Source: a virus. Taken from it: 62,580 nt of DNA. The notes under the pieces were generated by a model. It searched no databases. It was not told where the DNA came from and saw nothing but the letters and a program-made list of their open reading frames with translations. Below, one piece after another: positions 6,041 through 33,921 of this stretch (position 1 is the first letter of the stretch; each line of letters starts with the position of its first letter). Location: IMG/VR virus record IMGVR_UViG_3300017963_002532, positions 64,001 to 126,580 of that record; one strand, written 5' to 3'. Both the position numbers and the translations under genes were made by a program.

Positions 6041-6631
6041 TTAGTTATTTAGGGAATCCGGATCGAGTTTCGGATCGAGGCGAAGCGCCTCCTTGACGAT
6101 TACGATGGTGGGTACGCTGAACATGCGTGAGAGAACACGTTTGCCGAGATGAAGTCGATTGAGGAAACTTGCCTCATCCTTCTTCGGGATTCTGAAGTCG
6201 CGGTACATCTCGCTCTCAGCAACCAGTTGGAAGATCTTTTCACGACGCTTCTCAAGTTGCTTGGACTCAAAGCCCTCGAACTTAGCATTCACGACAGGAG
6301 AATCCGCAATCGTTTTCTCCGGTTTGGCGGGCGCGTCTTCCTGACGAGGAACCGGCATGGTGTTGTCCCTGCCAACTTCCTGTAGGCGTTCGCGGTCAAG
6401 CTGCTTGTCAAGCCGGGCAATAGCACGATTCATATCGCGGATAGTCTCTACCTCAAGTTCGCGCTTAAGGCGACCGATATCGCTCGGCAGCAAGTTCATC
6501 TTATTCTTGAACTCGAACTGAGATGCCTGACGCTTTAGCATCTCCAAAAACCTAATCTTCTGCTTGGTAGAAAGAACCCGTGCCTTTTCACTGGTCACCT
6601 GGGCTCTCTTAGCATCGTCTAAATGACTCAT
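6041..6631 (-). CDS. Charged helical protein of unknown function
   Basis: This 196-residue protein is rich in Lys, Arg, Glu and Asp, with long predicted helices at about residues 1-85, a Pro/Ala linker near 95-110 and another helical block to the end. The ATG overlaps the preceding stop as TAATG. It is the last gene of the sugar island operon before the gap that carries promoter copy A. No motif is recognised, and its place at the end of a sugar operon does not by itself suggest a sugar role. Confidence 0.55.
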   Translation of the reverse strand: MSHLDDAKRAQVTSEKARVLSTKQKIRFLEMLKRQASQFEFKNKMNLLPSDIGRLKRELEVETIRDMNRAIARLDKQLDRERLQEVGRDNTMPVPRQEDAPAKPEKTIADSPVVNAKFEGFESKQLEKRREKIFQLVAESEMYRDFRIPKKDEASFLNRLHLGKRVLSRMFSVPTIVIVKEALRLDPKLDPDSLNN

Positions 6632-7749
6632 TACTTATACATCCCTTCAAGTAACTTCCTGTTATCTTTCACCCAGCGGTGAACTTGACGATAACCCTCT
6701 TCGATGGTCACCTTTGGTGTCCATCCGAACTCCTGAGAAACGGCGCTGATATCTGAGATATAGATACAGTGATCCGCCATTCTCTCTTCCTTATTATACG
6801 ATATTTGAAGCCGTTTACGACTGATTTTCTCGACAATCTGAGTGGCTTCTCGTAAAGAAAGAGTAGATCCCGCGCCGCCGCCGACATTGTAAACGGAGCC
6901 GATATACCGCTCCGGATCGGCGCTTAGGGCAATTGCCTGTAAGTGCATTAATGGGCAGAGGTCGTCCGTCCAGAGCACGTCCCGGACCTGTGCGCCCTGC
7001 CATCCGATGTACTCGATCGGGAGTCCCAGGAGCGCCGCGATCATCCACCACGCGACCCATCCCTGCTCCGGCTTGCCCCACTGACACGGTCCCGCGAGGC
7101 AGGAGAACCGGTTCACGATCGCCGGGATACCAAAGGCGTGGGACCACTCCCGCACCAGGATATCCGCAGACGCCTTAGAAGCCCCGTAGATGGACTTCTC
7201 AGCGCCGTTGATGGTCAGGTCAGACGAGTATCCAAGCGCCGGATCGAAGCCCTCTGGAGCCTCATAGCCGTCAGGGAAGGAGATATACGGGTTCTCGTCG
7301 TCGATGAGCGCCTGCCAGTCCCACACCCAACGGTCTCCTTCCAGCTTACGAGGAGCCTCGTTGATCACGTCGGCGCTGTAGACCTTATTCGTGGAGAAGA
7401 AGATCAAGGACTGAGCATTCCCGGCGCGGATATACTCCAGCGTATTCACGACGCCAGCCGTGTTGTTCGTGTAGTCATACTGCGGATTGTTATACCCGTC
7501 AACCGCCGTAGGTTGAGCGGCACAGTCAACGACTACGTTGTACTCACCCGGCAACCGTGCAAAGTCTTCCATACAACGCACGTCGCCATGAAAGAACCTA
7601 ATACCTAGCTTCTTGAACTCTGCTAGATTGTTATGAACACCGTAGCGGGTTAGATTGTCCATCACATGGACGTTGTAACCCTTCTTCACGAAAAAGCGGG
7701 CGATGTTCGACCCGATCGCGCCGCAACCCCCAAGAATGAGAACTCTCAT
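6631..7749 (-). CDS. Extended SDR sugar epimerase, CDP-paratose 2-epimerase (RfbE)-like
   Basis: This is a 372-residue extended short-chain dehydrogenase. The N-terminal GGCGAIGSN gives the Rossmann glycine motif, STNKVY (about 119-124) the catalytic Ser/Thr, and YGASK (about 189-193) the Tyr-Lys pair. The RFSCLAGPCQWG stretch followed by QGWVAWW and QVRDVLW is characteristic of CDP-paratose 2-epimerases, which make CDP-tyvelose, and of close relatives. It acts in the cytoplasm on a nucleotide sugar with bound NAD. It follows the WecB-like gene by 10 bases with a GGGGGAAG ribosome site. The exact sugar is not provable here. Confidence 0.8.
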   Translation of the reverse strand: MRVLILGGCGAIGSNIARFFVKKGYNVHVMDNLTRYGVHNNLAEFKKLGIRFFHGDVRCMEDFARLPGEYNVVVDCAAQPTAVDGYNNPQYDYTNNTAGVVNTLEYIRAGNAQSLIFFSTNKVYSADVINEAPRKLEGDRWVWDWQALIDDENPYISFPDGYEAPEGFDPALGYSSDLTINGAEKSIYGASKASADILVREWSHAFGIPAIVNRFSCLAGPCQWGKPEQGWVAWWMIAALLGLPIEYIGWQGAQVRDVLWTDDLCPLMHLQAIALSADPERYIGSVYNVGGGAGSTLSLREATQIVEKISRKRLQISYNKEERMADHCIYISDISAVSQEFGWTPKVTIEEGYRQVHRWVKDNRKLLEGMYK

Positions 7750-7759
7750 ACTTCCCCCA

Positions 7760-8920
7760 TTACTTTTTGCACTTGCAACCGCCCTTACAGCGGGGCTTGT
7801 CTTCCAGAATCTTTTTGATCACTGCCACGATATTCTGCGACGGCGTATAGTCGTTGTAGGAGTCGTAGTAGTAATTATCCCATGCGCGGTTCATTGAACG
7901 CAGCGCACCATATAAGGCAACGTCATCCTGAATCCTCATAGTCCACAGAAACGCATTACCGTCGTCCGGATTGTTAGGAATCAGGGTTGTCGGACGCTCT
8001 GTAGAATCCCGTAGGATCAGGCATGGCTTCCGGAAGTAGTGAGACTCCTCAGATGAGGTAGAACCACTGTCGCTGACCACGACGTTACACCCGGCGACGA
8101 GCCGCAAGAAATCCTCCTGTGTCTGTGAGTCGAGAATCTCCACGCTGTCCGGAATGAAGTCGAGCAAACCGTACTTCTCTAGCTCCTTCCGTGTGCGCCC
8201 GTAACAGACGAACTTAGCCTTGCGCCCGCCCTGATAGATCTCGCGCAGTAGGTGAACGAAGTAGGTGAGGTTCTTCTCGTTCATGTTGTTGCCGCGATGG
8301 AACGACACAAGGTCATAGTCGCCCACGGTGGGTTGGATACCCCACTTGGTGACGTAGTAGTCCAGCGCCTCGATGATCGTATTCCCAACCACGTGGATCG
8401 TCTCTGGTAGATGACCCTCGCGGATTAGGTGTGGCACATACTCATGGAGATACACGAACTTGTGGTCCGCGATAGCGTCCATCGCCACCCGGTTGATCTC
8501 CTCCGGCAAGTCGAAGTTCTTATAGGCTGTCTCAAGTTTGCCCGACCGCATCGCGCACTCGATCCTGGCGTACTTGATACCCATGCGCTTCGCAATGAGA
8601 CCACTCAGGCACGGATTCATATCGCCCAGGTTGACGAAGAGGTCCGGCTTGATCTCTGCCAGCAACTCGGGTAGCCGATAGAATAGGCGGCTTAGCTGCT
8701 CATACCAGTTCTCGCCCTTCGCGCCGATGCCGAGGTTGTAGTCCGGCTCGCGCAATCCAAGGTTCTCAATAAACGCACGATCAAGCACGTCCGTATGAGA
8801 ATGCTGACCGCTGTTGATGAAGATACACTCGATATCTCGATCTGCGTCCAGGTTCTCAATCAGCCGCGCCAACCGAGCAAAGTCCGGTCGCCCGGCGGCA
8901 AAGACTACCACCTTCTTCAT
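7760..8920 (-). CDS. UDP-GlcNAc 2-epimerase (WecB/FnlC)-like
   Basis: This 386-residue protein belongs to the GT-B-fold sugar-nucleotide 2-epimerases. Signature pieces are SGQH near residue 37, NLGD with the catalytic Asp, RIECAMRSG (usually HVEAGLRS) with the catalytic Glu, LPEEINR, FHRGNN with the catalytic His, and SDSGSTSSEE with RDSTERP. The catalytic acids and His of the family are therefore kept, although flanking residues diverge. The extreme C-terminus is a lysine/cysteine tail (CKGGCKCKK) not usual in the family. The start overlaps the reductase gene as ATGA. A C2 epimerisation in an N-acetyl sugar pathway is likely. Confidence 0.82.
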   Translation of the reverse strand: MKKVVVFAAGRPDFARLARLIENLDADRDIECIFINSGQHSHTDVLDRAFIENLGLREPDYNLGIGAKGENWYEQLSRLFYRLPELLAEIKPDLFVNLGDMNPCLSGLIAKRMGIKYARIECAMRSGKLETAYKNFDLPEEINRVAMDAIADHKFVYLHEYVPHLIREGHLPETIHVVGNTIIEALDYYVTKWGIQPTVGDYDLVSFHRGNNMNEKNLTYFVHLLREIYQGGRKAKFVCYGRTRKELEKYGLLDFIPDSVEILDSQTQEDFLRLVAGCNVVVSDSGSTSSEESHYFRKPCLILRDSTERPTTLIPNNPDDGNAFLWTMRIQDDVALYGALRSMNRAWDNYYYDSYNDYTPSQNIVAVIKKILEDKPRCKGGCKCKK

Positions 8921-9813
8921 GACGTATACCTCTTCTGAACGAGTTCTCGCACCTGATCAATGATGTGCGGAACAGTAAGCTGCATCATATACACCGGATA
9001 CTCTGTCTTCAGAGTCATCCACTTCTCTTGCGGAGCCTTGACAGGCTTAATATCCGCACACACCCGACCGACCCGGGCAAACTCTTTCTTGAATGCCCAT
9101 AGTAGGTTCTCTTTCGAGACCGGAAGAGATGGCATGTGCTGGATACCCGGCTTCCACCAGCCCATCTTCATGATCGTGTAAACGACCTTTGCCCACTGGT
9201 AGGTGGTCATCCCGTTCCAGTGATGATTGACGAAGCCATTGACCTCGCCATCCTGATCGAGATACCACTCAAGAAGCGACCGCTGGGTGTTCATCTCCGG
9301 ACCGACAATGGACGTGCGAATGTTCATCGCCTGCGGACACTCGCCGAGAACCTTTGAGCGCCCGTATACGTCAGTAGCATCCGGTAGGTCGCTTTCCTTA
9401 TACGGCATACGCTTGTCGCCACTGAACACGCAATCAGTGCTGGGGTGGAAAATCTTGCCACCGAACTCACCAGCCATCACGGCTAGCTCGTGCGGGAAGA
9501 TGGAGTTGAGGCGAATGGCATCCGCTACCGAGGCGGGATTCCCCTCATTGATCGTCGGCTTAATCGCACCGATGCAGTTGATGATGTATTCAAACGGACC
9601 GTGTTCCGTGAAGAGGTCGCGCAACTGGTCTTCGTGACCAAGCAGCACGTCCAACACGGCGTGGGTACGCCCGTACATCCGCTTCTGTATACGAGTATCG
9701 GGCTCACGACACGTCCCGACAACCTCGTATTCCGACCCATTATTCAAGTATTGAAATACCTGATGCCCGAGCATCCCCGTAGCACCAAGTACTAGAACCT
9801 TTGGCTTGCTCAT
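8917..9813 (-). CDS. RmlD-type NDP-sugar reductase
   Basis: From the ATG at 9813 (ATGA overlap with the upstream stop) the protein is 298 residues. It has GATGMLGHQ at the N-terminus for NAD(P)H binding, STDCVFSG, and YGRSK as the catalytic Tyr-Lys pair, placing it in the dTDP-4-dehydrorhamnose reductase (RmlD) branch of SDR enzymes. It would reduce a 4-keto sugar nucleotide. Together with the adjacent cupin gene it forms an RmlC/RmlD-like pair; no RmlB-type 4,6-dehydratase is clearly present in the window. Confidence 0.8.
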   Translation of the reverse strand: MSKPKVLVLGATGMLGHQVFQYLNNGSEYEVVGTCREPDTRIQKRMYGRTHAVLDVLLGHEDQLRDLFTEHGPFEYIINCIGAIKPTINEGNPASVADAIRLNSIFPHELAVMAGEFGGKIFHPSTDCVFSGDKRMPYKESDLPDATDVYGRSKVLGECPQAMNIRTSIVGPEMNTQRSLLEWYLDQDGEVNGFVNHHWNGMTTYQWAKVVYTIMKMGWWKPGIQHMPSLPVSKENLLWAFKKEFARVGRVCADIKPVKAPQEKWMTLKTEYPVYMMQLTVPHIIDQVRELVQKRYTS

Positions 9814-10355
9814 CGTGGTTCTACGCTCCACACGTCGCCGAATAGGTCCGGCGGATATCGGAAGTCGTCGCCCTTACTTTGGTCAAACGTCGAAGACGAA
9901 AGAGAGAGTAATAGACAGTCATCCGTAAGGCTTACCCAGCCATTCGCATAGCCGGGCGGAATGATCAACATCTGCGGCTTACGCTCGGTAAGAACAAACG
10001 CATCCACGTTATTCTCGTCAAACGTATGCTTCTCTGGCTCGTCGCCGATCTGCTCTGTGCCAGTTGCCCGAACCGCGACGAACTTAGCCATCCCACGTAG
10101 TACGACAAAATACTTGGTCTCGTGATTGTGAAAGTGAAAGCCGCGAACCACCCCCTTCTGGCTGTTGTTGATGAAGTAGACACGCTTTACATCATCAAGA
10201 TCAATACCAGCACACGTCTTCGCATTAGCCCCGCTGACACGAAGCCCCTCATACTGATCGTCGTCTCCACGGCTCCAGTCATTCCAAACCGGAGTGAGAA
10301 TACCTCTATCGTCCGTATAAGACGGCAGGTCTCTCAATTCTAGCCTTTTACTCAC
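9810..10355 (-). CDS. Cupin, dTDP-4-dehydrorhamnose 3,5-epimerase (RmlC)-like
   Basis: The GTG at 10355 is preceded by GAGGAG at good distance, giving 181 residues. The core VVRGFHFHNHETKYFVVLRG and the PPGYANGW segment are the cupin barrel hallmarks of RmlC-type sugar epimerases or the related FdtA/WxcM isomerases. The first catalytic His lies in the GFHFH stretch. It overlaps the SDR gene upstream by 8 bases and the RmlD-like gene downstream. It probably epimerises or isomerises a keto-deoxy sugar nucleotide; which carbon is not decidable. Confidence 0.78.
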   Translation of the reverse strand: MSKRLELRDLPSYTDDRGILTPVWNDWSRGDDDQYEGLRVSGANAKTCAGIDLDDVKRVYFINNSQKGVVRGFHFHNHETKYFVVLRGMAKFVAVRATGTEQIGDEPEKHTFDENNVDAFVLTERKPQMLIIPPGYANGWVSLTDDCLLLSLSSSTFDQSKGDDFRYPPDLFGDVWSVEPR

Positions 10356-11325
10356 TGAGTTTCTCCTCAATGTTCTTCTTGTTGTTGAAGATCGGGTGCC
10401 GGTGGTTCTTGATCCGGCGCGAAGCTACTGCTGCCGCGATCTCCGCAATAGCGCGTTCCAGCGAGTAATCAAACCCCAGCGGGAAATCACGCTTAAACTT
10501 CTCGGTTGACGCCGCGTAGTCTCGGGCATCCATTCCGTCGCCTTCACGCTCCGTGGTCTTAATCTCGCCAAAGTTCAGAGTCTCCTGGATTGTCTGTGCC
10601 AACTCGTCGATGCGACAGTTGCACTGCGCCACGTTGTAGATGCCGGTCATATCCTTACGCGCAGCGTAGGCAATAATCCGAGCAATGTCTTTCACGTGAA
10701 CGAGCGGGCGCATCTGATCGCCACCATGCACGGTTAGCTCGCCATTGCGCACCATATTGGCGGTCATGATATTGACCACGAGGTCGAAGCGCGGACGAGC
10801 GAACTTGTCACCAAGCCCATAGACGGTGCCAAGACGGAAGATGACGGCGTTCTTATCTTCAAGAAACCTTTCAGCCGCCAGTTTGGTCTTCGCATACTCA
10901 GACAGTGGATTAGTTCCAGCGTCTTCCTTGAGCAGCGTACCACGAGGCGCAGTACCATACACAGAACACGTGCTCATGAAGATGATACGGCGGTCGCCAG
11001 CCACGCTTGCCAGCCACTCTACCGAATCCTGGTTGATCTCTTTCGTCAGCGCCGGGTCAATACTACACGCCGGATCGCCAACCAGAGCCGCCAGCCATAC
11101 GATCGTGTCGAAGTCTTCACCTTCGATCAGCCTCAGTAGCTTATGGCGCTCGCGGATATCTCCATAGTGGAACTGCACGTCCTTGAGATACTGACGCTCG
11201 TAGAGAAGACTATCATACACGTGAATCTCAGTATGAGACGCATCTTTCTGGAAGTTCGCCGCACGTAGGATATCAACCAACGCGCCGCCGATGTAACCCG
11301 CACCCCCAACAATCAGAACCTTCAT
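10348..11325 (-). CDS. NAD-dependent sugar epimerase/dehydratase (GalE-like SDR)
   Basis: This 325-residue extended SDR begins with LIVGGAGYIGG (NAD-binding), has MSTCSVYG (catalytic Ser/Thr) and YAKTK (catalytic Tyr-Lys). The RPLVHVKDIAR segment is typical of nucleotide-sugar epimerases and dehydratases. A GGAGG site precedes the ATG. The last 30 residues are basic and unlike the family core. It may catalyse 4-epimerisation or serve as the missing dehydratase or reductase in the pathway; sequence alone does not decide. Confidence 0.78.
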   Translation of the reverse strand: MKVLIVGGAGYIGGALVDILRAANFQKDASHTEIHVYDSLLYERQYLKDVQFHYGDIRERHKLLRLIEGEDFDTIVWLAALVGDPACSIDPALTKEINQDSVEWLASVAGDRRIIFMSTCSVYGTAPRGTLLKEDAGTNPLSEYAKTKLAAERFLEDKNAVIFRLGTVYGLGDKFARPRFDLVVNIMTANMVRNGELTVHGGDQMRPLVHVKDIARIIAYAARKDMTGIYNVAQCNCRIDELAQTIQETLNFGEIKTTEREGDGMDARDYAASTEKFKRDFPLGFDYSLERAIAEIAAAVASRRIKNHRHPIFNNKKNIEEKLSE

Positions 11326-12054
11326 CTAAACCTCCGTCATATCGTAGCCCAGCCTCCGGGCTAACATTCGTATCTCCGCAGACACCGTATCCGACTGTTC
11401 TCTATTCTCCGGCTTCCTCCATTGTCCAATTCGGTCCGGCGATATCGGACGCTTGTGTGGCACTCCCCAGCCCCCCAAAGTATCCCACACGCGCTTACCA
11501 GCTAGCTCGGCGGAGTCGTGCTTCTGAAACTCCCGATCTACATCTTGTTCTTCATGAAACTTGTCATACCCTTCAATTACCTCCTCATGAAGAAAGTTAG
11601 CGATACGTCTCATTATGATGTCCGTATCAACCACGAGTTCTTCATATTTGATTACGAGAAGGTCGGGGTTGTTTTGATGTAATAGAATCTCGTTTGCCGT
11701 ACGCTCCCACGACTTTGGGTGCCAAAAGTATCTCTGCTCTGCGTGTGGATTATGTGATACCGCAACATCTCGGGGATCGCGGATGGTACAAATAATACGC
11801 TCGCCCCTATCAAAGAGATCTTGGAAACAATAGTTACCCCACTCTTCCCAAAAACCGAACGGCTGTTTCGTAACAACATAACGATCGTTATGAATATGGG
11901 CTAGTTCTAAGAACCTTTCCATATACCGCTCTCTCATCAATGGGTGCATTTCGCTCCTGGTATACACCTTACAGTTGGTGATATACGGCATAAGCATGAG
12001 CAACAGACTTGTGCCACTCCGCGCCGGTCCAGTAACAAAGATATGGTCAGGCAT
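11326..12054 (-). CDS. PAPS-dependent sulfotransferase
   Basis: This is a 242-residue sulfotransferase-fold protein. The 5'-phosphosulfate loop FVTGPARSGTSLL lies at about residues 6-18, and the 3'-phosphate loop IRDPRDVAVSH at about 90-100, both in the expected positions for PAPS binding. The family transfers a sulfuryl group from PAPS to a hydroxyl on a sugar, protein or small molecule. It sits between an SDR and a small unknown gene in the sugar island, so a glycan is the likeliest acceptor. Such genes are uncommon in phages. Host PAPS would be required. Confidence 0.82.
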   Translation of the reverse strand: MPDHIFVTGPARSGTSLLLMLMPYITNCKVYTRSEMHPLMRERYMERFLELAHIHNDRYVVTKQPFGFWEEWGNYCFQDLFDRGERIICTIRDPRDVAVSHNPHAEQRYFWHPKSWERTANEILLHQNNPDLLVIKYEELVVDTDIIMRRIANFLHEEVIEGYDKFHEEQDVDREFQKHDSAELAGKRVWDTLGGWGVPHKRPISPDRIGQWRKPENREQSDTVSAEIRMLARRLGYDMTEV

Positions 12055-12055
12055 T

Positions 12056-12535: not shown

Positions 12536-12959
12536 CTGAATCACCCTTTGTCTTATATCCTTCTGCTTGCGGACACGACGCCTTGTGACGCCCCTTAAGT
12601 GAACAGCCACATGGACGCTTGTTCAGTTGATCTGCCCGCTCTTTCACTTTCTTCTTGCGCTTCGGGATGTAGAATTTACGCCGCTCTTTAGCGCGTTCCT
12701 TCCTCTCCTTTAGGCGCTCCTCTTTCATCTCCTCAGCAGTCTGAATTTGTAGTCTCTTGTCTGGTCCGTAAGAGGAACACTTCCAACAGATAGCCGCGAC
12801 AGCCTGCTCCCCAATCTCACGTATGCCATCCTTATTCTGCCACTCAGGAAAGAGAGGACGCCAGCACAGCGCGCAGTGGGTTTTCAGCATCGGATCTGGG
12901 TTTTCCAGATCAATCTCAACTGTCTTCCAATACTTATCGATTACGAGAGTCTTCGTCAT
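12528..12959 (-). CDS. Cysteine-rich zinc-binding protein
   Basis: This protein of about 143 residues (ATG at 12959; ATGs 6 bases and GTGs slightly further upstream are alternatives) has CALC and CWKC pairs about 30 residues apart, forming a probable zinc ribbon. A second cluster near the C-terminus, CGCSLKGRHKASC, can also bind zinc. Between them lies a very basic helical region (about residues 75-115). It probably binds nucleic acid or protein. It overlaps the pseudo-HAD gene by 26 bases. No specific family is recognised. Confidence 0.55.
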   Translation of the reverse strand: MTKTLVIDKYWKTVEIDLENPDPMLKTHCALCWRPLFPEWQNKDGIREIGEQAVAAICWKCSSYGPDKRLQIQTAEEMKEERLKERKERAKERRKFYIPKRKKKVKERADQLNKRPCGCSLKGRHKASCPQAEGYKTKGDSDA

Positions 12960-13578
12960 CACCATCGCCAATCAAAGTGGTGACCAGTGGCACGGTCAAC
13001 TTCGTTCCACGCGGGAGCCTGTGAACATGGCACCCAACGCTACGAGCAGCTTCCACGCCAAGTACGTCAGATTCAATAACCAGTGTCTCGTCAGGAGTCG
13101 TGCGACAATAGTGTAGGGCGACATCATAGCCGAACGCCGCCGGTTTGCCCATCGGAATCTGGTCTGGGGTGATAATATACTGTATACTCGGTAGAACTCC
13201 GCAACAGTCAAGTGCGAACAAAGCTACCTGATAGTCCTTATTCGTGACGCACACAAGGGAGAATCCGTGTTCGCGGATGTACTCCCCCACTAGTATTATG
13301 TCATTATCTGGCTTGATTCTTTCGGTAAAAATATCAAATATGCGCTCGTGGTACATGGCGCGTACTAACTCCAACTGATTCCACCAAATGGCGCCACTCA
13401 GGTTGAGTAGCGCAATCTTGGAATTGAAAGTTAGATTACCGAAGTCACGAATCTGTTCAGTTGGGCTAACGTTGACACCTGTGACGTGTTTCACGGCATA
13501 CTGAAATGCCTCAGCCTCCAAGTGTCTGATATCTACAAAAACCCCATCGAGTGCTCCGACGATAGCTTTTGGTACCAT
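12934..13578 (-). CDS. HAD-fold protein lacking the nucleophile Asp (probable pseudo-enzyme)
   Basis: This 214-residue protein aligns along its length with the HAD phosphatase at 15798-16418: a CVTN versus VCVTNK motif II, a PMGKPAAFGYD motif III lysine region and a VIESDVLGVEAARSVG motif IV region. The family's DxD motif I should read FDLDG, but here it reads GALDG, so the nucleophilic Asp at about residue 9 is Ala while the second Asp remains. The protein should therefore not act as a normal aspartyl-phosphate phosphatase. It may be a regulatory or scaffold copy produced by duplication. Confidence 0.7.
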   Translation of the reverse strand: MVPKAIVGALDGVFVDIRHLEAEAFQYAVKHVTGVNVSPTEQIRDFGNLTFNSKIALLNLSGAIWWNQLELVRAMYHERIFDIFTERIKPDNDIILVGEYIREHGFSLVCVTNKDYQVALFALDCCGVLPSIQYIITPDQIPMGKPAAFGYDVALHYCRTTPDETLVIESDVLGVEAARSVGCHVHRLPRGTKLTVPLVTTLIGDGDDEDSRNR

Positions 13579-13587
13579 TATCCCTCC

Positions 13588-14439
13588 CTAGACCGTCAGA
13601 CCAAAACGAGTCAGAACCTCTCTCTCTAAAGATAGTTGCGCCTCTCGGCTCTCCCATCCTTGTCCGCCGTTCGAGTCCGCGCCAACCGGGCGATCTAGAT
13701 GAGCAAACGGGAACCAGGATTGGTGGATACCCCACTGAGAACGTGAACCCTTGTTTAGTACGCCTGTCTCAAAGTCACGGTTGTCAGCAGCAAGAGCCAC
13801 ATTGATATTATCCAGCAGCGTCATCTCGGGACAGTCGGGACGCGTATTCACAGGATCGAGGAGGAACTTGGTGCGCTTCACAAAGCCCGGGTCTACCATG
13901 AAGACCTGTGGCATGATCTCTCGCCCGGTCCACTTCACCACGGGGTCGTCGTAGCCGCCCACCGTCTGACAAGCCATAGCCTTGCCGTTCACGAACATCT
14001 CCTTGGCGGCGTTGTAGATCCCCTCCTCTTGGAGTAAGAGGATGTTGGACTCACAGATCACCACCACATCCACGTCGTCAGCAACATCAAACAGCGCCTC
14101 TAGCCCGACCTTGTAGTTCCGCAGCATGGACTGACACATCGACTCCATCGCCTTGCCGTCGGCGGGTGCGCGGTAATGCCCTGCGCCGATACCGGGCGAG
14201 ATATCGAACGTCGCCGGGATGAAGTGCTCACGCAGATAGTCCAGGCTGATCGTAACGATATTCGGCACGACCACGTGACGGTCTACGTTTGTGGTATCGA
14301 ACTCACCCTCGGGGTCTCCACTCAGCACAGAAACGATAGGGCTGTCGGCGAACTTCTCCCACTGGTGCTTGATGATATTGGCAGTCCACTCTAGCTCAGT
14401 GAATTGATCGTAGCCAATGAATACGAATCCTACTTTCAT
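13588..14439 (-). CDS. Unknown protein, possibly glycosyltransferase-like
   Basis: From the ATG at 14439, which overlaps the nucleotidyltransferase stop as ATGA, the product is 283 residues. The N-terminus (MKVGFVFIGYDQF) looks like a beta strand followed by a turn, and DVDVVVICESNILLL near residue 130 is a strand ending in acidic residues as in GT-A folds, but a clean DxD is not seen. Context (nucleotidyltransferase upstream, sugar genes around) suggests a sugar-related role. The 70 extra N-terminal residues of the longer open frame are rejected as they lie in the upstream gene. Confidence 0.45.
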   Translation of the reverse strand: MKVGFVFIGYDQFTELEWTANIIKHQWEKFADSPIVSVLSGDPEGEFDTTNVDRHVVVPNIVTISLDYLREHFIPATFDISPGIGAGHYRAPADGKAMESMCQSMLRNYKVGLEALFDVADDVDVVVICESNILLLQEEGIYNAAKEMFVNGKAMACQTVGGYDDPVVKWTGREIMPQVFMVDPGFVKRTKFLLDPVNTRPDCPEMTLLDNINVALAADNRDFETGVLNKGSRSQWGIHQSWFPFAHLDRPVGADSNGGQGWESREAQLSLEREVLTRFGLTV

Positions 14440-25609: not shown

Positions 25610-26012
25610 CAGTCTCTTCCGGGAACCATGCAAAACCCAGGCGGCGTAGGGCTTGATCATACACGCCGGAGCCTAGCTCACGCATACACTCGATACTGCG
25701 GTCATCAATAAACGCCACAGCATCGGGCTTACCAGTGCCGCCAGTAAAGATGGAATCATACTCCAGCCCGTGCTTCTTCATCCACTCGCGGATACACTCA
25801 GCGGCGAACTCCGGGCTCTGCCCGTGGAGATCCGTGAAGAACTGGTTAGTTCGGCACGTGTAGATCATCACCGTATACCGCGTGCGCAGGGTCATAAGCA
25901 TCTCTCTCGCGCCCGGGTATGGATCATTGAACGTGCGAAGCCCATCACTCCAGTCATTCGGCTGCGGAGCTAGGGTGCCGTCGAGGTCTACGCACACGAG
26001 AGGCTTAGACAT
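25599..26012 (-). CDS. Small HAD-superfamily phosphatase
   Basis: From ATG 26012 the protein is 137 residues. CVDLDGTLA (about residues 6-14) is a complete DxDGT motif I, IYTCRTN gives motif II, and GKPDAVAFIDDRS gives motifs III and IV (Lys and Asp-Asp). The short cap-less form resembles phosphatases of nucleotide or sugar phosphates and the phosphatase half of polynucleotide kinases. It lies between two paralogous GT2 genes, overlapping the upstream one by 8 bases. It may remove phosphate from a sugar intermediate. Confidence 0.78.
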   Translation of the reverse strand: MSKPLVCVDLDGTLAPQPNDWSDGLRTFNDPYPGAREMLMTLRTRYTVMIYTCRTNQFFTDLHGQSPEFAAECIREWMKKHGLEYDSIFTGGTGKPDAVAFIDDRSIECMRELGSGVYDQALRRLGFAWFPEETDGE

Positions 26013-26814
26013 CATCCAACCCCTTCTTCTCAGCCGCCTCGTGGTCATAGCGGTGGATGTAGGGATCTACGTCGTCAGGATAGATATCGTCCAGTGTAAT
26101 ATCCTGCTCGCCCGACAGGGTGAGACGCGCCAGACGACGCGAGTGCTCCGCTGCCCTCTCCTCTTCTTCCTTATTAGAGCCGGTTAGCTGCTTGCCGGGG
26201 TTGTAGCGGAAGCCCATGAGAACAAGGCGCACTAGCTCAAAGTCCCCATACCGCGCCAGCCGGACTGCCATATCGTAGTCTTCACAGATACGACGCCAGT
26301 AGTCGCCAGCCGCACGCTTAGCGTCCATACGGAACATGAATGCCGGACCCTGATCATAACCATTTACCAAGTCCGACGTGGGCTTGAAGTCGTGGATGAC
26401 CGTCTCGATCACGCGATTGTTGACGTCGATATACTGGAAGTCCGCATACACCATCGCAACCTTTTTGGGCGAATGGTCGAGAGCCTTCACGAGACACGAC
26501 AGGAAGTTCGGGTAGTAGATATTATCACCCGATACCATCGTGCCATAATCGAAGCCACCCTTCTCAAACGCGGCGTCGAACCCCGTGTTGAGAGCACCAC
26601 CCGTGCCCTTGTTCTCTTGGCATAGGACGGTAATCTTCTCTGGATGGCGAGACTCCCACTCTTTCATGATGGGTAGGAGATTGCCCTCCGCGCCATCACT
26701 CACGGCGAAGATATGAAAGTTGTCGTACTCCTGGCTAATCAGGCTACGCATCATCATATGAATCCACCGCTCGCTGCGGTAGAACGGAAGGACTACTGCT
26801 ACGCGTCCACCCAT
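26005..26814 (-). CDS. GT2-like glycosyltransferase, pair member b
   Basis: This 269-residue protein has VAVVLPFY at the N-terminus, FAVSDGA near residue 38, a KGTGGALNTGFD segment and TMVSGDNIYYP near residue 92 as the metal-site region. It is the paralogue of the 24824-25609 gene across its full length. The shared YWRRICEDYxxAV and DPYIHRYDHE segments mark a subfamily distinct from the three-copy family nearby. No membrane segment is visible. Confidence 0.78.
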   Translation of the reverse strand: MGGRVAVVLPFYRSERWIHMMMRSLISQEYDNFHIFAVSDGAEGNLLPIMKEWESRHPEKITVLCQENKGTGGALNTGFDAAFEKGGFDYGTMVSGDNIYYPNFLSCLVKALDHSPKKVAMVYADFQYIDVNNRVIETVIHDFKPTSDLVNGYDQGPAFMFRMDAKRAAGDYWRRICEDYDMAVRLARYGDFELVRLVLMGFRYNPGKQLTGSNKEEEERAAEHSRRLARLTLSGEQDITLDDIYPDDVDPYIHRYDHEAAEKKGLDDV

Positions 26815-27359: not shown

Positions 27360-27583
27360 AGTTCCCCCACTAGGTCGGAAGACTCGTCTGTCCCGTGTAG
27401 TCGTAGTTCCTTATCACAGCACGCCGAGGCATACTCAGGGTTATCTATGATGTATAGAAAGAACCCGCAATGGTTGGACCATAGAATCTCAACCACCTTC
27501 GCCGGTCCTACCCACTGCTGAATCGAGGGGTCAATGTAGTCTACCTCGTCGCCTATTTGAAACGCCTGTTCCACCTGTGGCAT
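27356..27583 (-). CDS. Small unknown protein
   Basis: This is a 75-residue acidic protein with an ATGA overlap with the kinase gene downstream and a TAATG junction with the upstream transferase. FQIGDEVDYIDPSIQQWVGPAKVVEI looks like a small beta-barrel with an SH3- or KOW-like turn pattern. No catalytic motif is present, and the end is Ser/Asp/Glu-rich. Function unknown; tight coupling supports that it is real. Confidence 0.5.
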   Translation of the reverse strand: MPQVEQAFQIGDEVDYIDPSIQQWVGPAKVVEILWSNHCGFFLYIIDNPEYASACCDKELRLHGTDESSDLVGEL

Positions 27584-28392
27584 TATGACTCGCCTTTACA
27601 TCTGTGTAGGGTGAAAGAGTTGGATAGTAATAGAGATGGAATCCCCTGCTGCTCGCCGCGATCGAAATACTCTACGTCGCCAGTCAAGCCGCCGGGACCC
27701 ACGTGATTCCAAAGAGCACCCAGGCGCTCGTAGGTATCGCGGCGCTGAATCCAGCTAGCGCCGACCGTGTGGAACATCCAGCCCCGAGTTGCGTGCCTGA
27801 ACGGCAGGGCATACTCGTCGTTAGTGAGTAGTCGGTCGGCAGAGATCGCCTGACAGAACGTATCGAACTTACCCCAATCGGGCTTATACATATCGTCCCA
27901 CCAACCGATGGGCATGATGTGACGCGAGCATGGCGCTCCATACGCCGCCTTAGATCCGTCCCACGACTCCATCGTATACAGGTGGTAGAATGCCGTCTGC
28001 TCGAAGTTGCCTTCGTCGTCAAGATTCTCATAAGGAAGAATCAACTTCATGGCGTCGCCGATAAAGCCACGACTGAAGATCTGGTCCGAGCCCGACCTGA
28101 ATACATACGTCGCCTGGGACATTTCGTATCCCAGGTTGAAGCAGTTGTAGAGGTTGAACACGAAGTGATGATGCGGATGCCCCTTGAACTCATGTTCCGC
28201 CGCCCTATAGATCACGTAGCGGATGCCGTGGTCTTCAGCATACTGGATGATGTCCGGCTCCGGGTCCCATAGAACGAGGTTGATTTCCATATTGTCGTAG
28301 CCCGCCCGATCCCGGACACACCTTACCCATTGATCGAGCAACTTTACGTTGCGTCCAATAACCGTGTAACAGGATACGAGCGGGTTGTTCAT
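27583..28392 (-). CDS. GT2-like glycosyltransferase (diverged GT-A)
   Basis: This 269-residue protein starts VSCYTVIGRNVKLLDQWVRC, the usual GT2 opening with one strand and a helix. INLVLWDPEPD near residue 38 is in the nucleotide-binding place, and TYVFRSGSDQIFSRGF near residue 93 is in the place of the DxD strand, although the motif reads GSDQ. It may therefore be a diverged transferase. It lies in the glycosyltransferase run, one base from the 27356 gene and 2 bases from the small 28395 gene. Confidence 0.62.
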   Translation of the reverse strand: MNNPLVSCYTVIGRNVKLLDQWVRCVRDRAGYDNMEINLVLWDPEPDIIQYAEDHGIRYVIYRAAEHEFKGHPHHHFVFNLYNCFNLGYEMSQATYVFRSGSDQIFSRGFIGDAMKLILPYENLDDEGNFEQTAFYHLYTMESWDGSKAAYGAPCSRHIMPIGWWDDMYKPDWGKFDTFCQAISADRLLTNDEYALPFRHATRGWMFHTVGASWIQRRDTYERLGALWNHVGPGGLTGDVEYFDRGEQQGIPSLLLSNSFTLHRCKGES

Positions 28393-28394
28393 GA

Positions 28395-28652
28395 CTAATT
28401 CCCTGATGGCGGAGAAGCAGATGTGGTGATGTGAGTAATCTTACCATTGGCATCGACGTCAAACGTGAAGTTTACCGTCTTGCCGTCATCCCACTTACCA
28501 CGGATATACTTACCCTGCTCTACGATCTTCTCGTCCTTTGATTCACCGATTTGATCGTTGCCGTCTGCATCGGTGTAATAAATCTTTACGGTCCACCCCG
28601 TTAGGGTTGAACCAGTAACCGTTAGGCTACTAACGTCACTTTGGGTTGGCAT
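28395..28652 (-). CDS. Small Ser/Thr-rich protein inside the glycosyltransferase run
   Basis: This 85-residue protein has a strong GGAGG ribosome site. The N-terminal 20 residues are rich in Ser and Thr (SDVSSLTVTGSTLTG), followed by a beta-rich, Asp/Lys-rich body and a Ser-rich end with PPSGN. It has no signal peptide or membrane helix. A small non-enzyme protein placed among transferase genes could be a carrier, a virion decoration protein or a glycosylation substrate. That is inference; no family is recognised. Confidence 0.5.
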   Translation of the reverse strand: MPTQSDVSSLTVTGSTLTGWTVKIYYTDADGNDQIGESKDEKIVEQGKYIRGKWDDGKTVNFTFDVDANGKITHITTSASPPSGN

Positions 28653-28653
28653 A

Positions 28654-29748
28654 CTATTCCCTCCAAGCCTGCCCTACCTGGTTACCCCATTCGTCGCGCT
28701 GTCCTGTGATTGTCATCACCCAAATTTGCGGGACCTTAGCCAAACAGTATGGCTGAGTATTGTCCCACTCGTCAAATTGTTTATCATGATAGAATGGATC
28801 ATGCCATCCATTAATAACCTTTAGAATATACGGCGCATCCTCGTCAAGTTGCGCGTGCATGAGTGCGTGTAGCCCTTGAGGAAAGACGCCGGTATAGCGA
28901 GCGATCGTAGTCAAATCCTCAGTATGGTTGAGATACTGCTCAGTCTTCTCTAGGTGAGACTCCACGCCCCTGTCTCCGTGCTTGGCTAACTCTTCCTCAT
29001 AGAACTTTGCCTTCGCCTTTTGCTCTTCTGGATCTTTGATGAAACCCAGGTGCCAGATATACATATCGTTCAGCACGAAACGATACGGCTGCACAGAGTC
29101 ATCGAAGTAACTACAGAACGCATTCGGATAGGACATCACGGGGTGAGCCCGGTAGTGCATTCCCTTGTAGTACTTAATGATTCGCTGGTGCTGAGGCTGA
29201 TGCTCCGGGTCCGCCTTCTTGATGTGCATCATATCCCGGTAGAAGTGGAGGAACAGCGGGACGAACTCGCGGGCTTGCGGGTAGATGTCGATCAACTCAC
29301 GCAGCCGGTGGATATCCTCGGGGCGGTAGAACTCATCAACGTCGTTTATGATCATCCAGTCGCCCTCATCGAGAAACCGTAGGAACGTGTTCTTGATCTC
29401 TTCCAGGTCCACAAATGGGCGGTCCTGCTGAATCAACTCCACCTTATCGTCGGGATCATTGTGCTCGATGAACTCAAGGATCTTCTCCACGGTGGCGTCA
29501 ACAGAGTGACCGTCTTCCGTGCGATTCGGACGAGCAATCGTCGCCCCCTCGATGACAAGGATCTTATCCACGGCGTCGTAGATCGACCCCATCGTGTACT
29601 GGATCAAGTGTTCTTCATTATGAGCCTGAATACACTGCACCAGCTTGGGGCGCATCTCTAACTCGTCCAGAATATGGTAAGAAGCCTTACTCTGCTCCTC
29701 TTCCTTAGCCTTCTGCTCTTCTGGAGTGAGTTCCTTTTCTTCACTCAT
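28654..29748 (-). CDS. GT2-like glycosyltransferase with charged N-terminal extension
   Basis: This 364-residue protein begins with about 30 Glu/Lys-rich residues. It continues with KLVQCIQAHNEEHLIQYTM, the opening strand-helix of GT-A enzymes with the HNEE signature, and has WMIINDVDEFYRPED near residue 128 giving the DVDE metal site. Similar enzymes are annotated as glycosyltransferase family 2 or 92-like. It overlaps the upstream GT-B gene by 8 bases. Donor and acceptor are unknown. Confidence 0.73.
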   Translation of the reverse strand: MSEEKELTPEEQKAKEEEQSKASYHILDELEMRPKLVQCIQAHNEEHLIQYTMGSIYDAVDKILVIEGATIARPNRTEDGHSVDATVEKILEFIEHNDPDDKVELIQQDRPFVDLEEIKNTFLRFLDEGDWMIINDVDEFYRPEDIHRLRELIDIYPQAREFVPLFLHFYRDMMHIKKADPEHQPQHQRIIKYYKGMHYRAHPVMSYPNAFCSYFDDSVQPYRFVLNDMYIWHLGFIKDPEEQKAKAKFYEEELAKHGDRGVESHLEKTEQYLNHTEDLTTIARYTGVFPQGLHALMHAQLDEDAPYILKVINGWHDPFYHDKQFDEWDNTQPYCLAKVPQIWVMTITGQRDEWGNQVGQAWRE

Positions 29749-30721
29749 ATGAACTTTCCTTAATCAGCTTCTCCCAACTCTCCTTGAACGCCTTCCTGCT
29801 GAAGTGCTGCTCCACAACCTTGCGGGAGGCAGAGCCGATCTTCTTCAACTGGTCAGGCGTTAGCTTGGATAGTCGGGCGGCTAGCTCGTTTGCGTCATTC
29901 ACGAAGATCATCGAGTTATCGTCGAATAGCTTCGTCAATGTAGGATTACGAACGGAAATCACGGGTAGACCGCGACCTGCTGCTTGTAACACAAGAAGCG
30001 GCAGGGGATCTGCCTCGTGGATGTTGATGAAGCCCGTGTGCCTCTCAAGTAGGGAGGCTTCCTCGACCTCCTGGGTTTCGTAATAGAGACAGCCGTTCCA
30101 GCCACGAACCTCGATCGGGAGATCCTTGCGGTCCCGGATATCCTTCCATAGCTCGGTCGGATTGAGGTCGATGTGATTGTACCACAGCAGCCACTTACTA
30201 CTCTTCGGTTTATACTTGCGATGCACCGCCGGAGCCCACTCCGGGATCACCACGCTGTCTTCATCTGTGTAGCCCCATGCCTCTTGTGCCTGGGCTGTCT
30301 TGAAGACAACGACGTCTACCTTCTCGTCCAGATCCTTCTTGAAACCCTCGATGTTATACTCGGGCTTCGGGAGGAAGTGCTCGACGTAGATCAGTGGGAA
30401 ACCCAGCGACTCTGCTACCATATGTAGCCTCTCAACATGCTGGTATCTATCATGCGCGATGGCAGCGTCAATATACCGATCGATTCCACGGATATCCATC
30501 AGAGCCTTCATGTTAGCTCGGTCGTTGGCATAGCGAGGATCGTAGTAGTATTGCAAGCCCGGGATCATCGGAGCCCAATGGAAGAAGTCCGCCTGCATCC
30601 CGTCTGCCATCATGAGTTGATACCGCTGGTTCCCATCCATCGTGAGAATGGATGGTCTCTCTTCACGCACGTTGGCTGTATTCACAATCCAAAAGATCTG
30701 TGCGCCGGAATCAGTACTCAT
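29741..30721 (-). CDS. GT-B glycosyltransferase
   Basis: The ATG at 30721 has AAGGAG seven bases upstream and gives 326 residues. The C-terminal half contains HTGFINIHEADPLPLLVLQAAGRGLPVI, equivalent to the E-x7-E donor-binding region of GT4-type enzymes, though the pattern is degenerate. The N-terminal half is a Rossmann-like fold rich in Asp and Tyr. It starts 4 bases after the stop of the next GT4 gene. No membrane segment. Sugar and acceptor unknown. Confidence 0.66.
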   Translation of the reverse strand: MSTDSGAQIFWIVNTANVREERPSILTMDGNQRYQLMMADGMQADFFHWAPMIPGLQYYYDPRYANDRANMKALMDIRGIDRYIDAAIAHDRYQHVERLHMVAESLGFPLIYVEHFLPKPEYNIEGFKKDLDEKVDVVVFKTAQAQEAWGYTDEDSVVIPEWAPAVHRKYKPKSSKWLLWYNHIDLNPTELWKDIRDRKDLPIEVRGWNGCLYYETQEVEEASLLERHTGFINIHEADPLPLLVLQAAGRGLPVISVRNPTLTKLFDDNSMIFVNDANELAARLSKLTPDQLKKIGSASRKVVEQHFSRKAFKESWEKLIKESSYE

Positions 30722-30725
30722 CCAC

Positions 30726-31856
30726 TTACTCCTTGAGTAGAGATTCAAGAATCTCTTTGAACATCGGTCCCACGTGCTCGTGGTCGAATCGGTCCAGCCC
30801 CGTCACCTTGCGCAGCTTACCCTCCTTGTGGTCTTCATAGGCAAGGCGCATCTGCTCGATCATAGAGTTCACAGACGGCTCCGCCCATTGCTCCTGGCTG
30901 GTGAAGAGATACGGAAGCGGGTGACGCATATCGTATACGGGCTCGATACTATGACGAACCTCGTAAATCTCGTCCCGCTTCAAGTATGCCTCGGGTCCAC
31001 CCCACAGAGGAGAGACGATGCCGTTGCCGAATGCCGCCGCCTCGAAGAGCGGGATTCCCCACCCCTCGCCGTTGCTTGCGTTGACGTAGACGTCCGCCGT
31101 CGCGTGAATACGATCGACCTGCTCCCGGCTGAGGATCTGTGAGATGACTACGAGCGGAGGACACTTGGGATACCTCATGCCATCGTTGACGTCATTCACA
31201 AAACTCATGATCTGCTCTTCCTCATTGGAGCGGGTCATCTGGTTAAAGTAACCCTTGAGGATAAGCAATACCTTTTCGCCGTCCTGGAACGCACCCGCGT
31301 ATGCACGCAGTAGCTTGTCGATCCCCTTCTTCTTCGAGATCTGCGAGACGTTGTAGAAGATGAGGGGCTTCTCGTCGTCGGTCAGCTTCTCACCGGCAAT
31401 ATCGTCAATGAGTTCGACCTCGCGGGAATACCTCTCCATCTCGAACGTATGTGGCACAACAAACACGGGCTTGTCGCAACCACCCTTCTTGATAGCCTCT
31501 GCGCTCATAGGGCAGAACGTAACCACCGCGTCCATACGGTTGAGAGACTCAGCCCATGCCTGGGGAATCTTGTCCGTCTCGGTAGCAATCATACCCACGT
31601 ACTTCGCCCGCTTGTCACCGTCCCGCACCGCCATCTCATTCGGAGTTAAGTGCTGGATGATGATATCAACATTGTCGGGCGAGCGCGTGAACAGCTTCCG
31701 CTCCCACGGCTCTAGCTGATGCTCGTGTCCGTCGTCGTACTTGACGTTACGAAGAACGAGGTCCACGCCAACCTTATTGAGCGCGGCAACGTAGTCCCGG
31801 GCTGCTGTAGAATAACCAGAGAAGCCCAGGTATGGACTAATGTATAGGACTTTCAC
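30726..31856 (-). CDS. GT4-family glycosyltransferase
   Basis: This 376-residue protein opens KVLYISPYLGFSGYSTAARDY, the GT4 N-terminal glycine loop, and has VYVNASNGEGWGIPLFEAAAFG near residue 265, the E-x7-E donor-binding motif. The domain order and length are normal for the family. It retains the anomeric configuration when transferring from an NDP-sugar and works in the cytoplasm. It is coupled by ATGA overlap with the small gene at 31853. Confidence 0.86.
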   Translation of the reverse strand: MKVLYISPYLGFSGYSTAARDYVAALNKVGVDLVLRNVKYDDGHEHQLEPWERKLFTRSPDNVDIIIQHLTPNEMAVRDGDKRAKYVGMIATETDKIPQAWAESLNRMDAVVTFCPMSAEAIKKGGCDKPVFVVPHTFEMERYSREVELIDDIAGEKLTDDEKPLIFYNVSQISKKKGIDKLLRAYAGAFQDGEKVLLILKGYFNQMTRSNEEEQIMSFVNDVNDGMRYPKCPPLVVISQILSREQVDRIHATADVYVNASNGEGWGIPLFEAAAFGNGIVSPLWGGPEAYLKRDEIYEVRHSIEPVYDMRHPLPYLFTSQEQWAEPSVNSMIEQMRLAYEDHKEGKLRKVTGLDRFDHEHVGPMFKEILESLLKE

Positions 31857-32047
31857 TTCTCTTCCTCTTCCTTTTTCTCTAACATTTTCTTCCAGGCTCT
31901 TTCTGGCACAGCACTCATAAACTTGTCTTCATCGGTGAGCAGAGATGTAGGAAGACTATGTTGAAATACATCAAAGCCGCCGTGGTGGTTCTTGAATATA
32001 CAAGTATGACCTGAATCAGATATCAGATTACCATCGACCCACTTCAT
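31853..32047 (-). CDS. Small unknown protein
   Basis: This 64-residue protein has a Gly/His-rich N-terminal half and a Lys/Glu-rich C-terminal end of about 15 residues. It fits exactly between the two GT4 genes, with an ATGA overlap downstream and 8 bases upstream. No motif or membrane segment is recognised. It may be a small accessory or regulatory protein; nothing further can be supported. Confidence 0.45.
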   Translation of the reverse strand: MKWVDGNLISDSGHTCIFKNHHGGFDVFQHSLPTSLLTDEDKFMSAVPERAWKKMLEKKEEEEK

Positions 32048-32055
32048 GTTAGCCC

Positions 32056-33921
32056 TTACGACTTAATGATCATTGCCTGCACGCCGTCCTTCTTCTTCTC
32101 ATCAGCCTCCACGGTCTCACCACGGAAACGCTTCTGAGCCTCATTCAGACGCTTGGCAACCTCGTACTCTTGCATCCCTTGTTCAATGAAGAACTTGTAG
32201 ATGCCGTCGATCGTGTTCCTACCCTGTTGGAGAGTGGCGAGCCAGAACTGCTTACCCTGCTCGTCCACCGCACGCTTCAGGATATACTGATAGCACCAGT
32301 CGATGAACTCGGGGGCATTCATACCCGGCGGGGGCGGGTCCATACCCGGCTTGACCGGATTCTGCTCGGCTTCCCAACCCTCAGAGCGCGGCTTCTCGTC
32401 GATGTTGTCGAAGACGAACATCCAACGATCTACCATATCGCCCTCGGTGTAGTTGTCCATAACGCACTTACGCGCATCTTCACCCATCTGCTCGCGTAGC
32501 TCGTCGTTGCAGAGTAGCTCCTGCATCTTCTCAGCGCAGTCATTAATATCTGGTAGAGCACGCTTCTGAGAAGTCTCCGGCTCGTAATACCAACGGTCTA
32601 CCTCGATCGGCATTCCACCCAGGTGGACGGTGTATTCGTCCTTGTTGATATACGGGAAGTTCGGGATGCGCACCTTCTCCGTTAGGGCGGAGTAGTCCAG
32701 TGCCAGCACCGGGACGCCGCAAGCCTTCGCCTCGATGGGCGGGATTCCCTCACCCTCGGCGATTGAAAGCTGGACGTAGAGGTCGGCACAGTTGTAGATC
32801 TGCGCGAGAATATCACGACTCACACCACCATGAGTGTTCGGGCAAGACGCGGTGTGGCGTCCGCACTTCGCACACTGCACGCTGATCGTCTTGTTGCCGT
32901 TGATGGTCTCGACCGGCTTGTTAGCCAGCGCAACAGCCGGAGCGACAAAGATGTGATTGCACGCACGACACATGAACGTGTTGTACACGAATGCATGTAG
33001 GTCATGGCACGTATGCTCAACGCCGTAGTAGCCCTTCGAGATGCGCTCGATGTGCTTGGGATAGTTGTAGGACTGAGCGTTGTCAGGATAGCTCGTATGC
33101 AACCAGAGGATAGCCTTATCCACCCTGGCGTTGCCACGATATTTGTTCTTCATCTGCGCAAAGGCGTCGATCAGATCCGGGAACAGCTTACGCGCCTGAT
33201 TACGCATGGTGCTGAGGATCACGCCGCGATCTTCGATGCGGTCGTTGAAGACCTGATTGCCAACGATGACCGGCGTGTTGGAGCGAACCTGTAGCCACTC
33301 GCGCTTGAGTTCTTCCTTGTCCGCCCCCATAGGACGGAACGTGTCCACGTCGATCGGGGTGCGAAGTGGAACCTTGTGGAGACGAGACCGCTGCTTGCCC
33401 AGGACCGTGCTGTTACGAGCGAGAGTATCGATACCGAAATCGGTATAGCTCATCACGTAGTCGCACGACTCGTAGGTCTTGATCCAGTCTTCGTCCTGCG
33501 GGCAGGAGTCTACTGTCGGCATCCACAGCCACTTGAAGCAGCCGCGATACGGAGACCGCTTAATCCACTGGTCCATCCAGTGGTCCCTGTTGCAGACGAC
33601 AAAGTCCGGCTGGAAGTCGAGAACTACCTCGTCAAACTTCCAAGCGCCGAACTGGTTAATCAACTGCCCCTTGTCTTCCGGGAACGGGGAGGGGGTCATG
33701 TAGACGCGCTTCTCTTCCTCGTTCGTCGGCATACAGAAGTACTGCTTCCAGGGATTGGTATGACGACGCGGATCATTAGCATATCCATAGCTGCCGAACT
33801 CAGCGATCTCATACTTTCCTGTCGCGTACAGCCCCTTTAGCAACCGCTGATTGTATGTTGAGAAACCAGTAGCGAGAAAAGATGACTCGCTTACAATCAA
33901 TATTCTTTTTTTACGTTCCAT
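32056..33921 (-). CDS. GT4-family glycosyltransferase with Cys-rich insert and C-terminal DUF4214-like domain
   Basis: This 621-residue protein is a fusion. Residues about 5-230 form the first Rossmann domain. A donor-side domain follows with VQLSIAEGEGIPPIEAKACGVPVLA near residue 385. Between them (about 315-365) is an insert with CRAC, CAKC and a further CPN cysteine, likely to bind zinc. Residues about 530-585 (APEFIDWCYQYILKR..D..G..FW) match the DUF4214 pattern seen in secreted and glycan-related proteins. It is the first enzyme of the sugar run after the HNH gene, overlapping its end by 11 bases. Confidence 0.8.
   Translation of the reverse strand: MERKKRILIVSESSFLATGFSTYNQRLLKGLYATGKYEIAEFGSYGYANDPRRHTNPWKQYFCMPTNEEEKRVYMTPSPFPEDKGQLINQFGAWKFDEVVLDFQPDFVVCNRDHWMDQWIKRSPYRGCFKWLWMPTVDSCPQDEDWIKTYESCDYVMSYTDFGIDTLARNSTVLGKQRSRLHKVPLRTPIDVDTFRPMGADKEELKREWLQVRSNTPVIVGNQVFNDRIEDRGVILSTMRNQARKLFPDLIDAFAQMKNKYRGNARVDKAILWLHTSYPDNAQSYNYPKHIERISKGYYGVEHTCHDLHAFVYNTFMCRACNHIFVAPAVALANKPVETINGNKTISVQCAKCGRHTASCPNTHGGVSRDILAQIYNCADLYVQLSIAEGEGIPPIEAKACGVPVLALDYSALTEKVRIPNFPYINKDEYTVHLGGMPIEVDRWYYEPETSQKRALPDINDCAEKMQELLCNDELREQMGEDARKCVMDNYTEGDMVDRWMFVFDNIDEKPRSEGWEAEQNPVKPGMDPPPPGMNAPEFIDWCYQYILKRAVDEQGKQFWLATLQQGRNTIDGIYKFFIEQGMQEYEVAKRLNEAQKRFRGETVEADEKKKDGVQAMIIKS

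Follow-up and report, generated by a model that had tools for sequence, protein, structure and literature searches.

What does a phage glycosylate with some 13 glycosyltransferases (GTs)? The question is raised by a window of 62,580 nucleotides (bases 64001-126580 of the 126,580-base IMG/VR record IMGVR_UViG_3300017963_002532), in which a block of GT, sugar-nucleotide, sulfotransferase and methyltransferase genes at positions 6631-33921 lies inside a phage genome. A preliminary description of the window had proposed direct glycosylation of a phage product, either a virion protein or a DNA base, rather than synthesis of a surface polysaccharide. The first of these products is favoured by a Ser-Gly motif that is specific to the lineage and restricted to its virion proteins; the DNA base is little supported, the thymidylate synthase being an ordinary one. 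On balance, the sequence evidence points to a self-contained cytoplasmic system that would O-glycosylate Ser-Gly sites of exposed virion proteins and whose sugars would be exchangeable.

The window record was combined with an overlapping, near-identical companion contig of 113,546 bases (polymerase and tail protein at 60233 both 100% identical), which contributes about 38 kb beyond it. The source genome is a siphophage of about 165 kb, and the additional 38 kb hold TerL (best isolate-phage match just 25%), a gene in the capsid position, a tape measure protein of 1261 residues and the tail tube protein. Below, A denotes the window lineage genome, and B (137 kb) and C (170 kb) denote relatives of similar layout, with TerL about 40% identical to that of A.

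A Ser-Gly motif confined to virion proteins

With virion protein sets defined through position and homology, SG is the most over-represented of the 400 dipeptides in the virion proteins of A (154 observed, 73.9 expected), B (206, 111) and C (181, 94), with z about 9, and GS, TG and AG are near expectation. The non-virion proteins of the same genomes contain SG at expectation (48/47, 43/46 and 58/52, respectively). The ratio of observed to expected SG in virion proteins, 1.86-2.09 in A, B and C, compares with 1.20 overall in 10 unrelated phages (0.80-1.64). The flanks of the pair are biased as well, towards Ala or Pro preceding and Val, Ile, Leu or Gln following. The motif [AP]SG[VILQ] occurs 25, 31 and 24 times in the virion proteins of A, B and C, against 2.1, 3.8 and 2.7 expected (8-12x), and 0 times in the tested non-virion proteins of the three genomes (3.7 expected); the unrelated phages have 0-3 each, as by chance. 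In the virion proteins of lambda (1-24000), SG is also the top dipeptide (63 vs 38.3, z 4.0); the flanking motif does not accompany it.

The motif was defined post hoc from A, B and C, and five further genomes were used as a test. These contain it 22, 27, 23, 28 and 12 times against 2.1-3.0 expected, SG ranks first among the dipeptides of each, and the eight genomes together have 192 vs 22.9 (8.4x). The tail-tube flanks of further relatives show 145 vs 20.2, and matched controls from the same collection 35 vs 18.1 (T4-like) and 6 vs 10.4 (SPO1-like). Among orthologues, SG pairs are kept at 43-55% and other Ser residues at 24-25%.

Both residues of the pair are specified. In the frame [AP]xG[VILQ], Ser alone is strongly enriched, the ratios for Thr, Asn, Asp and Ala being 0.88, 0.96, 1.35 and 1.55; in [AP]Sy[VILQ], Gly alone is enriched to a comparable degree. 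This specificity argues for recognition of Ser-Gly and against a turn motif. Three other sources of the excess were considered. First, a DNA-level artefact is ruled out by the use of 22 distinct hexamers with background codon usage. Second, a generic beta-turn is made unlikely by NG, DG and TG, which lie at or near chance in the same frame. Lastly, a repeat-rich fibre is ruled out as the driver, as 159 vs 19.6 remain without SG-repeat fibres.

In the tail tube protein, SG columns are conserved in 25 inner relatives (e.g. positions 170, 207, 212, 248 and 276 of 447). In a moderate model (predicted local distance difference test, pLDDT, 68), most of these sites lie outside confident strands, and a predicted strand includes site 170, which 25/25 inner and 31/36 outer relatives keep. 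The candidate acceptors in the window are given in Table 1. The tail fibre-like one has LamG and PKD domains, and about a dozen short SG(Q/E)(I/V)GGY repeats (SGQIGGY-type) separate its domains. In tape measures the motif is absent and SG is not enriched, which fits an interior protein and equally a helical one.

A conserved glycosyltransferase core and a variable sugar layer

Three GTs of the cluster, here GT4a, GT4b and GT2q, and a GDP-mannose 4,6-dehydratase (GMD) have counterparts in B and C, with identities to A of 44%, 33-35%, 43-45% and 38-44%, respectively (polymerase, 39%). The remaining sugar genes of A have no counterpart in B or C. Judged by these identities, conservation of the core matches that of the DNA polymerase, and the layer of sugar pathways varies. 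A profile search with GT4a returned 323 IMG/VR contigs, 80 of which were fetched for neighbourhood counts. The polymerase is in the fetched GT4a flank in 79/80 and GT4b in 70/80, and the order DnaB-primase-Cas4-Pol-GT4a-GT4b is kept across contigs of many metagenomes. GT4a was found in 24/24 genomes chosen by their tail tube protein, independently of GTs, and every lineage member examined carries it.

By tblastn, none of 50,697 isolate phages matches GT4a, and GT2q has no counterpart in the isolate phages searched; GT4b reaches just about 23% identity to Streptomyces and other phage GTs. The AlphaFold2 model of GT4a (pLDDT 89) has a GT-B fold, with chlorovirus NY-2A B736L (3oy2) as top PDB match. 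GDP-mannose binding is reported for B736L (PMC9614988); the structural match is weak evidence, because all GT4 enzymes share the fold. We regard GT4a as a lineage hallmark beside the DNA polymerase and a candidate initiating or core enzyme. At locus L086 (8471-11512), an in-frame insert with matches to Intein_splicing, Hint and LAGLIDADG_3 interrupts GT4a, which by these matches holds an intein; GT4a of G020, G023 and G024 is likewise interrupted, judged by frame length. Eight loci with GT4a relatives (L238-L245) are on contigs from metagenome-assembled genomes of widely different phyla, from Hydrogenophaga to Lokiarchaeota. These are possibly phage contigs binned with their hosts, or misbinned, and no host was assigned for this reason.

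The position of GT4a after the DNA polymerase and replication genes also suits GTs that hypermodify phage DNA with an oligosaccharide as protection from nucleases. The Yersinia phage YerA41 is a precedent, its thymidines bearing about 1 kDa that is probably oligosaccharide (PMC9023294). With our phage, YerA41 shares several GT genes and a sizeable adduct on a product of the phage itself, here a proposed one. It differs in that its target is DNA. We identified no enzyme here that hydroxylates bases: the thymidylate synthase ThyA is of the ordinary kind, and a Tet_JBP search of 11 genomes gave no match, a weak result since the search control was also silent. DNA hypermodification would moreover leave the Ser-Gly motif unexplained, and we consider it very unlikely.

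A second possibility is that the motif is real and has nothing to do with the GTs, being a structural or assembly signal or the site of another Ser modification, with the cluster serving something else. A mild general enrichment of SG in virion proteins would agree with this, as would the conserved flanks of some sites and the location of tail tube site 170. However, the strict specificity for Ser and Gly, excluding Thr, Asn and Asp, misfits a generic turn, and the beta-rich tails of other phages do not reach the level seen here. Where GT4a has diverged, relatives show a weaker motif, which hints at a link between the two. Taken together, we find an unrelated motif quite unlikely.

Several points weigh against virion glycosylation nevertheless. 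The link between GTs and motif is a co-occurrence in one lineage, and descent alone could join both. Six outer-clade genomes (GT4a 30-36% identical) have an SG excess of 1.36-1.70 with little flanking context (5-7 vs about 2.3). The motif is of intermediate strength (23/6.8; p = 0.0003 vs the inner set) in a side clade whose tails are inner-like and whose GT4a forms its own branch. Such a gradient would fit an enzyme and a motif changing together, although phylogeny alone could also produce it. The core GTs sit within the replication block, as DNA modification would also have it. SG is mildly enriched in virion proteins at large (1.20; lambda 1.64; T4-like contigs 1.32), the major capsid protein lacks clear SG enrichment, and tape measures, being probably helical, are a weak control. 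The support for glycosylation is entirely sequence-based.

Cluster content, predicted sugars and export genes

The preliminary account of the block as about 13 GTs with sugar-nucleotide, sulfotransferase and methyltransferase genes in a single direction stands: all open reading frames (ORFs) are on the minus strand (Table 1), many overlap by 1-4 bases, and the proteins are without a convincing transmembrane (TM) segment. The setting in a phage replication and tail genome was also borne out. Replication genes (DnaE-type polymerase, primase, DnaB, UvsX) and tail genes flank the cluster, with ribonucleotide reductase (RNR) and dUTPase on its other side. In A, B and C alike, the RNR gene directly adjoins a flavin adenine dinucleotide-dependent oxidoreductase (DAO; window 2885-4099). 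The bounds need revision: sugar genes continue beyond them, with GMD, another GT2 and methyltransferase genes left of the window. An IMP dehydrogenase gene (L006:5049-6146) is also found left of the window, near the sugar genes of A, and B has one inside its GT cluster (L021:16000-17040), which may reflect demand for GDP-sugars. A Pfam GT family was matched above cut-off by 8/13 GTs and below threshold by those at 21568, 22337 and 28654. The sole match of the GT at 29741 is a PHROG glycosyltransferase, and the one at 27583, without a Pfam match, is a GT2-like guess. Pfam also gave the families of the non-GT sugar genes in Table 1, with SDR/epimerase at 6631, 8917 and 10348. By their sequence, two ORFs look HNH/AP2-like and homing endonuclease-like, one within the cluster (19040-19573) and one beside GT4a (33911-34585).

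Table 1. Features of the window: sugar genes, the neighbouring polymerase, candidate acceptors and the interior control
Positions	Strand	Feature	Basis or content
6631-7749	-	SDR (short-chain dehydrogenase/reductase), nearest solved relative CDP-tyvelose 2-epimerase	
7760-8920	-	UDP-GlcNAc 2-epimerase family	
8917-9831	-	RmlD-like reductase (SDR/epimerase by Pfam)	
9810-10370	-	RmlC/FdtA-like cupin epimerase	Pfam
10348-11325	-	SDR sugar-nucleotide epimerase/dehydratase	
11326-12054	-	Sulfotransferase	Pfam
12934-13578	-	HAD phosphatase-like	Pfam
14436-15188	-	Sugar nucleotidyltransferase	
15176-15796	-	Methyltransferase (Methyltransf_24)	Pfam
15798-16418	-	HAD phosphatase/phosphomutase-like	
17058-18161	-	DegT-fold pyridoxal/pyridoxamine phosphate (PLP/PMP) enzyme, His for Lys; ColD/RfbH-like 3-dehydratase candidate	Pfam, alignment
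18151-19068	-	GT4 (ORF to 19167; likely start near 19068)	Pfam
20148-20972	-	GT2	Pfam
21568-22332	-	GT2-like	Sub-threshold Pfam
22337-23212	-	GT2-like	Sub-threshold Pfam
23209-24063	-	GT32-type (Gly_transf_sug)	Pfam
24063-24824	-	GT2	Pfam
24824-25660	-	GT2	Pfam
26005-26814	-	GT2	Pfam
27583-28392	-	Probable GT2-like transferase	Sequence pattern
28654-29748	-	GT2q, third core GT, GT2-like	Sub-threshold Glycos_transf_2
29741-30748	-	GT4-like glycosyltransferase (weak)	phrog_7162, E 0.0012
30726-31856	-	GT4b, second core GT4	Pfam
32056-33921	-	GT4a, GT-B/GT4, zinc-ribbon-like insert, weak DUF4214 at C-terminal end	Pfam Glycos_transf_1
35532-38906	-	DnaE-type DNA polymerase, constant upstream neighbour of GT4a	
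47451-49682	-	Candidate acceptor, tail protein	15 SG vs 7.8
49679-50167	-	Candidate acceptor, tail-block protein	6 SG vs 1.6
50168-52984	-	Candidate acceptor, conserved tail protein	17 SG vs 7.6
52948-57030	-	Candidate acceptor, LamG/PKD tail fibre-like	40 SG vs 13 expected
60233-61708	-	Candidate acceptor, virion protein	10 SG, 3 core motifs
61725-62579	-	Tape measure C-terminal end (1261 residues in companion contig), interior control	SG not enriched

The nearest solved structures of the protein at 7760 are UDP-GlcNAc 2-epimerases, and those of the protein at 17058 are DegT enzymes, the closest being perosamine synthetases. The latter gene had been described as a PLP enzyme, and its DegT fold agrees; the position of the PLP lysine is occupied in the alignment by His (SFYSSHTVTTG), however, which makes an aminotransferase less likely than a 3-dehydratase. 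His in place of this lysine is the pattern of the ColD/RfbH dehydratases, and because of it we read the gene as probably a ColD/RfbH-type 3-dehydratase. A GDP-perosamine pathway, suggested by the best PDB matches, was set aside on the same ground. Together with GMD, the predicted enzyme could plausibly yield a GDP-3,6-dideoxy sugar.

Predicted pathways of this kind (2-epimerase, cupin and RmlD, GMD with the ColD-like enzyme, the CDP-tyvelose 2-epimerase-like SDR) are typical of O-antigens, and the cluster might instead remodel the host surface (lipopolysaccharide (LPS), O-antigen or capsule) through host lipid carriers and export, e.g. in superinfection block or pseudolysogeny. Large blocks of sugar-nucleotide and GT genes are known as 'LPS gene clusters' from the T4-like marine cyanophages P-SSM2, S-SSM7 and S-SM2, their role being unestablished (PMC3037559). 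Those clusters are sited near hli03/phoH and tRNAs, unlike the polymerase-side cluster here, and the virion proteins of P-SSM2 have SG at 1.29x and no clear excess of [AP]SG[VILQ] (3 vs 1.8). Of the components of a phage LPS or O-antigen locus, sugar-nucleotide pathways and several GTs are present in our phage; a flippase, polymerase, exporter or lipid-carrier transferase was not found in the 165 kb, as the preliminary description had noted for the block, nor in B and C, the two most complete of the relatives examined. In a simple hydropathy scan, no protein of the 165 kb had more than three TM segments, and none was multi-TM. B and C also have no protein with more than three, and their only ORF with three, of 110 residues, is probably not a gene. 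Host-surface remodelling further leaves unexplained the virion-confined motif and a lineage-wide core locked to polymerase and tail; we think it unlikely.

Proposed O-glycosylation and its relation to known systems

We postulate that a fixed core of GT4a, GT4b and GT2q, supplied with GDP-sugars via the phage GMD, would begin and extend a common stem on the Ser of (A/P)-S-G-(V/I/L/Q). Outer, variable sugars would then be built by the exchangeable GTs, rare-sugar pathways, sulfotransferase and methyltransferases. The targets would mainly be tail tube, tail tip, fibre and neck or decoration-type proteins, and the coat might serve shielding, stability or adsorption. Such acceptors, being proteins of the cytoplasm that go on to form virions, would make a flippase unneeded. 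The chances seem to us about even that the wider proposition holds, namely that a large uncultivated siphophage lineage has general sequon-directed O-glycosylation, in which many exposed virion proteins would be recognised by the fixed core at (A/P)-Ser-Gly-(V/I/L/Q) and the coat would be diversified through a sugar module that can be exchanged.

Phage GTs that glycosylate structural proteins, including the tail tube, and thereby shield them are described for mycobacteriophages (Freeman et al. 2023, as cited in PMC12619734), and phage-encoded GTs are common to both cases, structural-protein glycosylation being proposed from sequence in ours. As far as described in that source, the mycobacteriophage glycans are at capsid and tail-tube C-termini (PMC12619734), whereas the motif sites here, which are putative sites and not observed glycans, are spread internally across many virion proteins that share one Ser-Gly motif, and are accompanied by 13 GTs and rare-sugar pathways. 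The chloroviruses PBCV-1 and NY-2A, which glycosylate their capsid autonomously, also encode cytoplasmic-type GTs and GDP-sugar enzymes, NY-2A being the source of the best structural match to GT4a; they bear N-linked glycans, on Asn in atypical contexts (PMC9614988), and their hosts are eukaryotic algae, whereas the present case is a tailed phage with Ser-Gly as the putative site.

Literature searches for a Ser-Gly sequon in phages returned nothing relevant. Such a sequon would be new and, to our knowledge, no other phage-encoded sequon that acts across the proteome would precede it.

Sugar-gene blocks of phages, such as the cyanophage 'LPS clusters', have been without an established role, and the present lineage supplies a concrete, testable acceptor motif. 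If the proposal is true, these phages would possess a cytoplasmic, lipid-free, Ser-Gly-specific O-glycosylation system, which would account for the GTs kept beside the polymerase by a group of phages that is common though uncultivated. Phage defence or adsorption would then be suggested as the trait that variable sugar coats serve.

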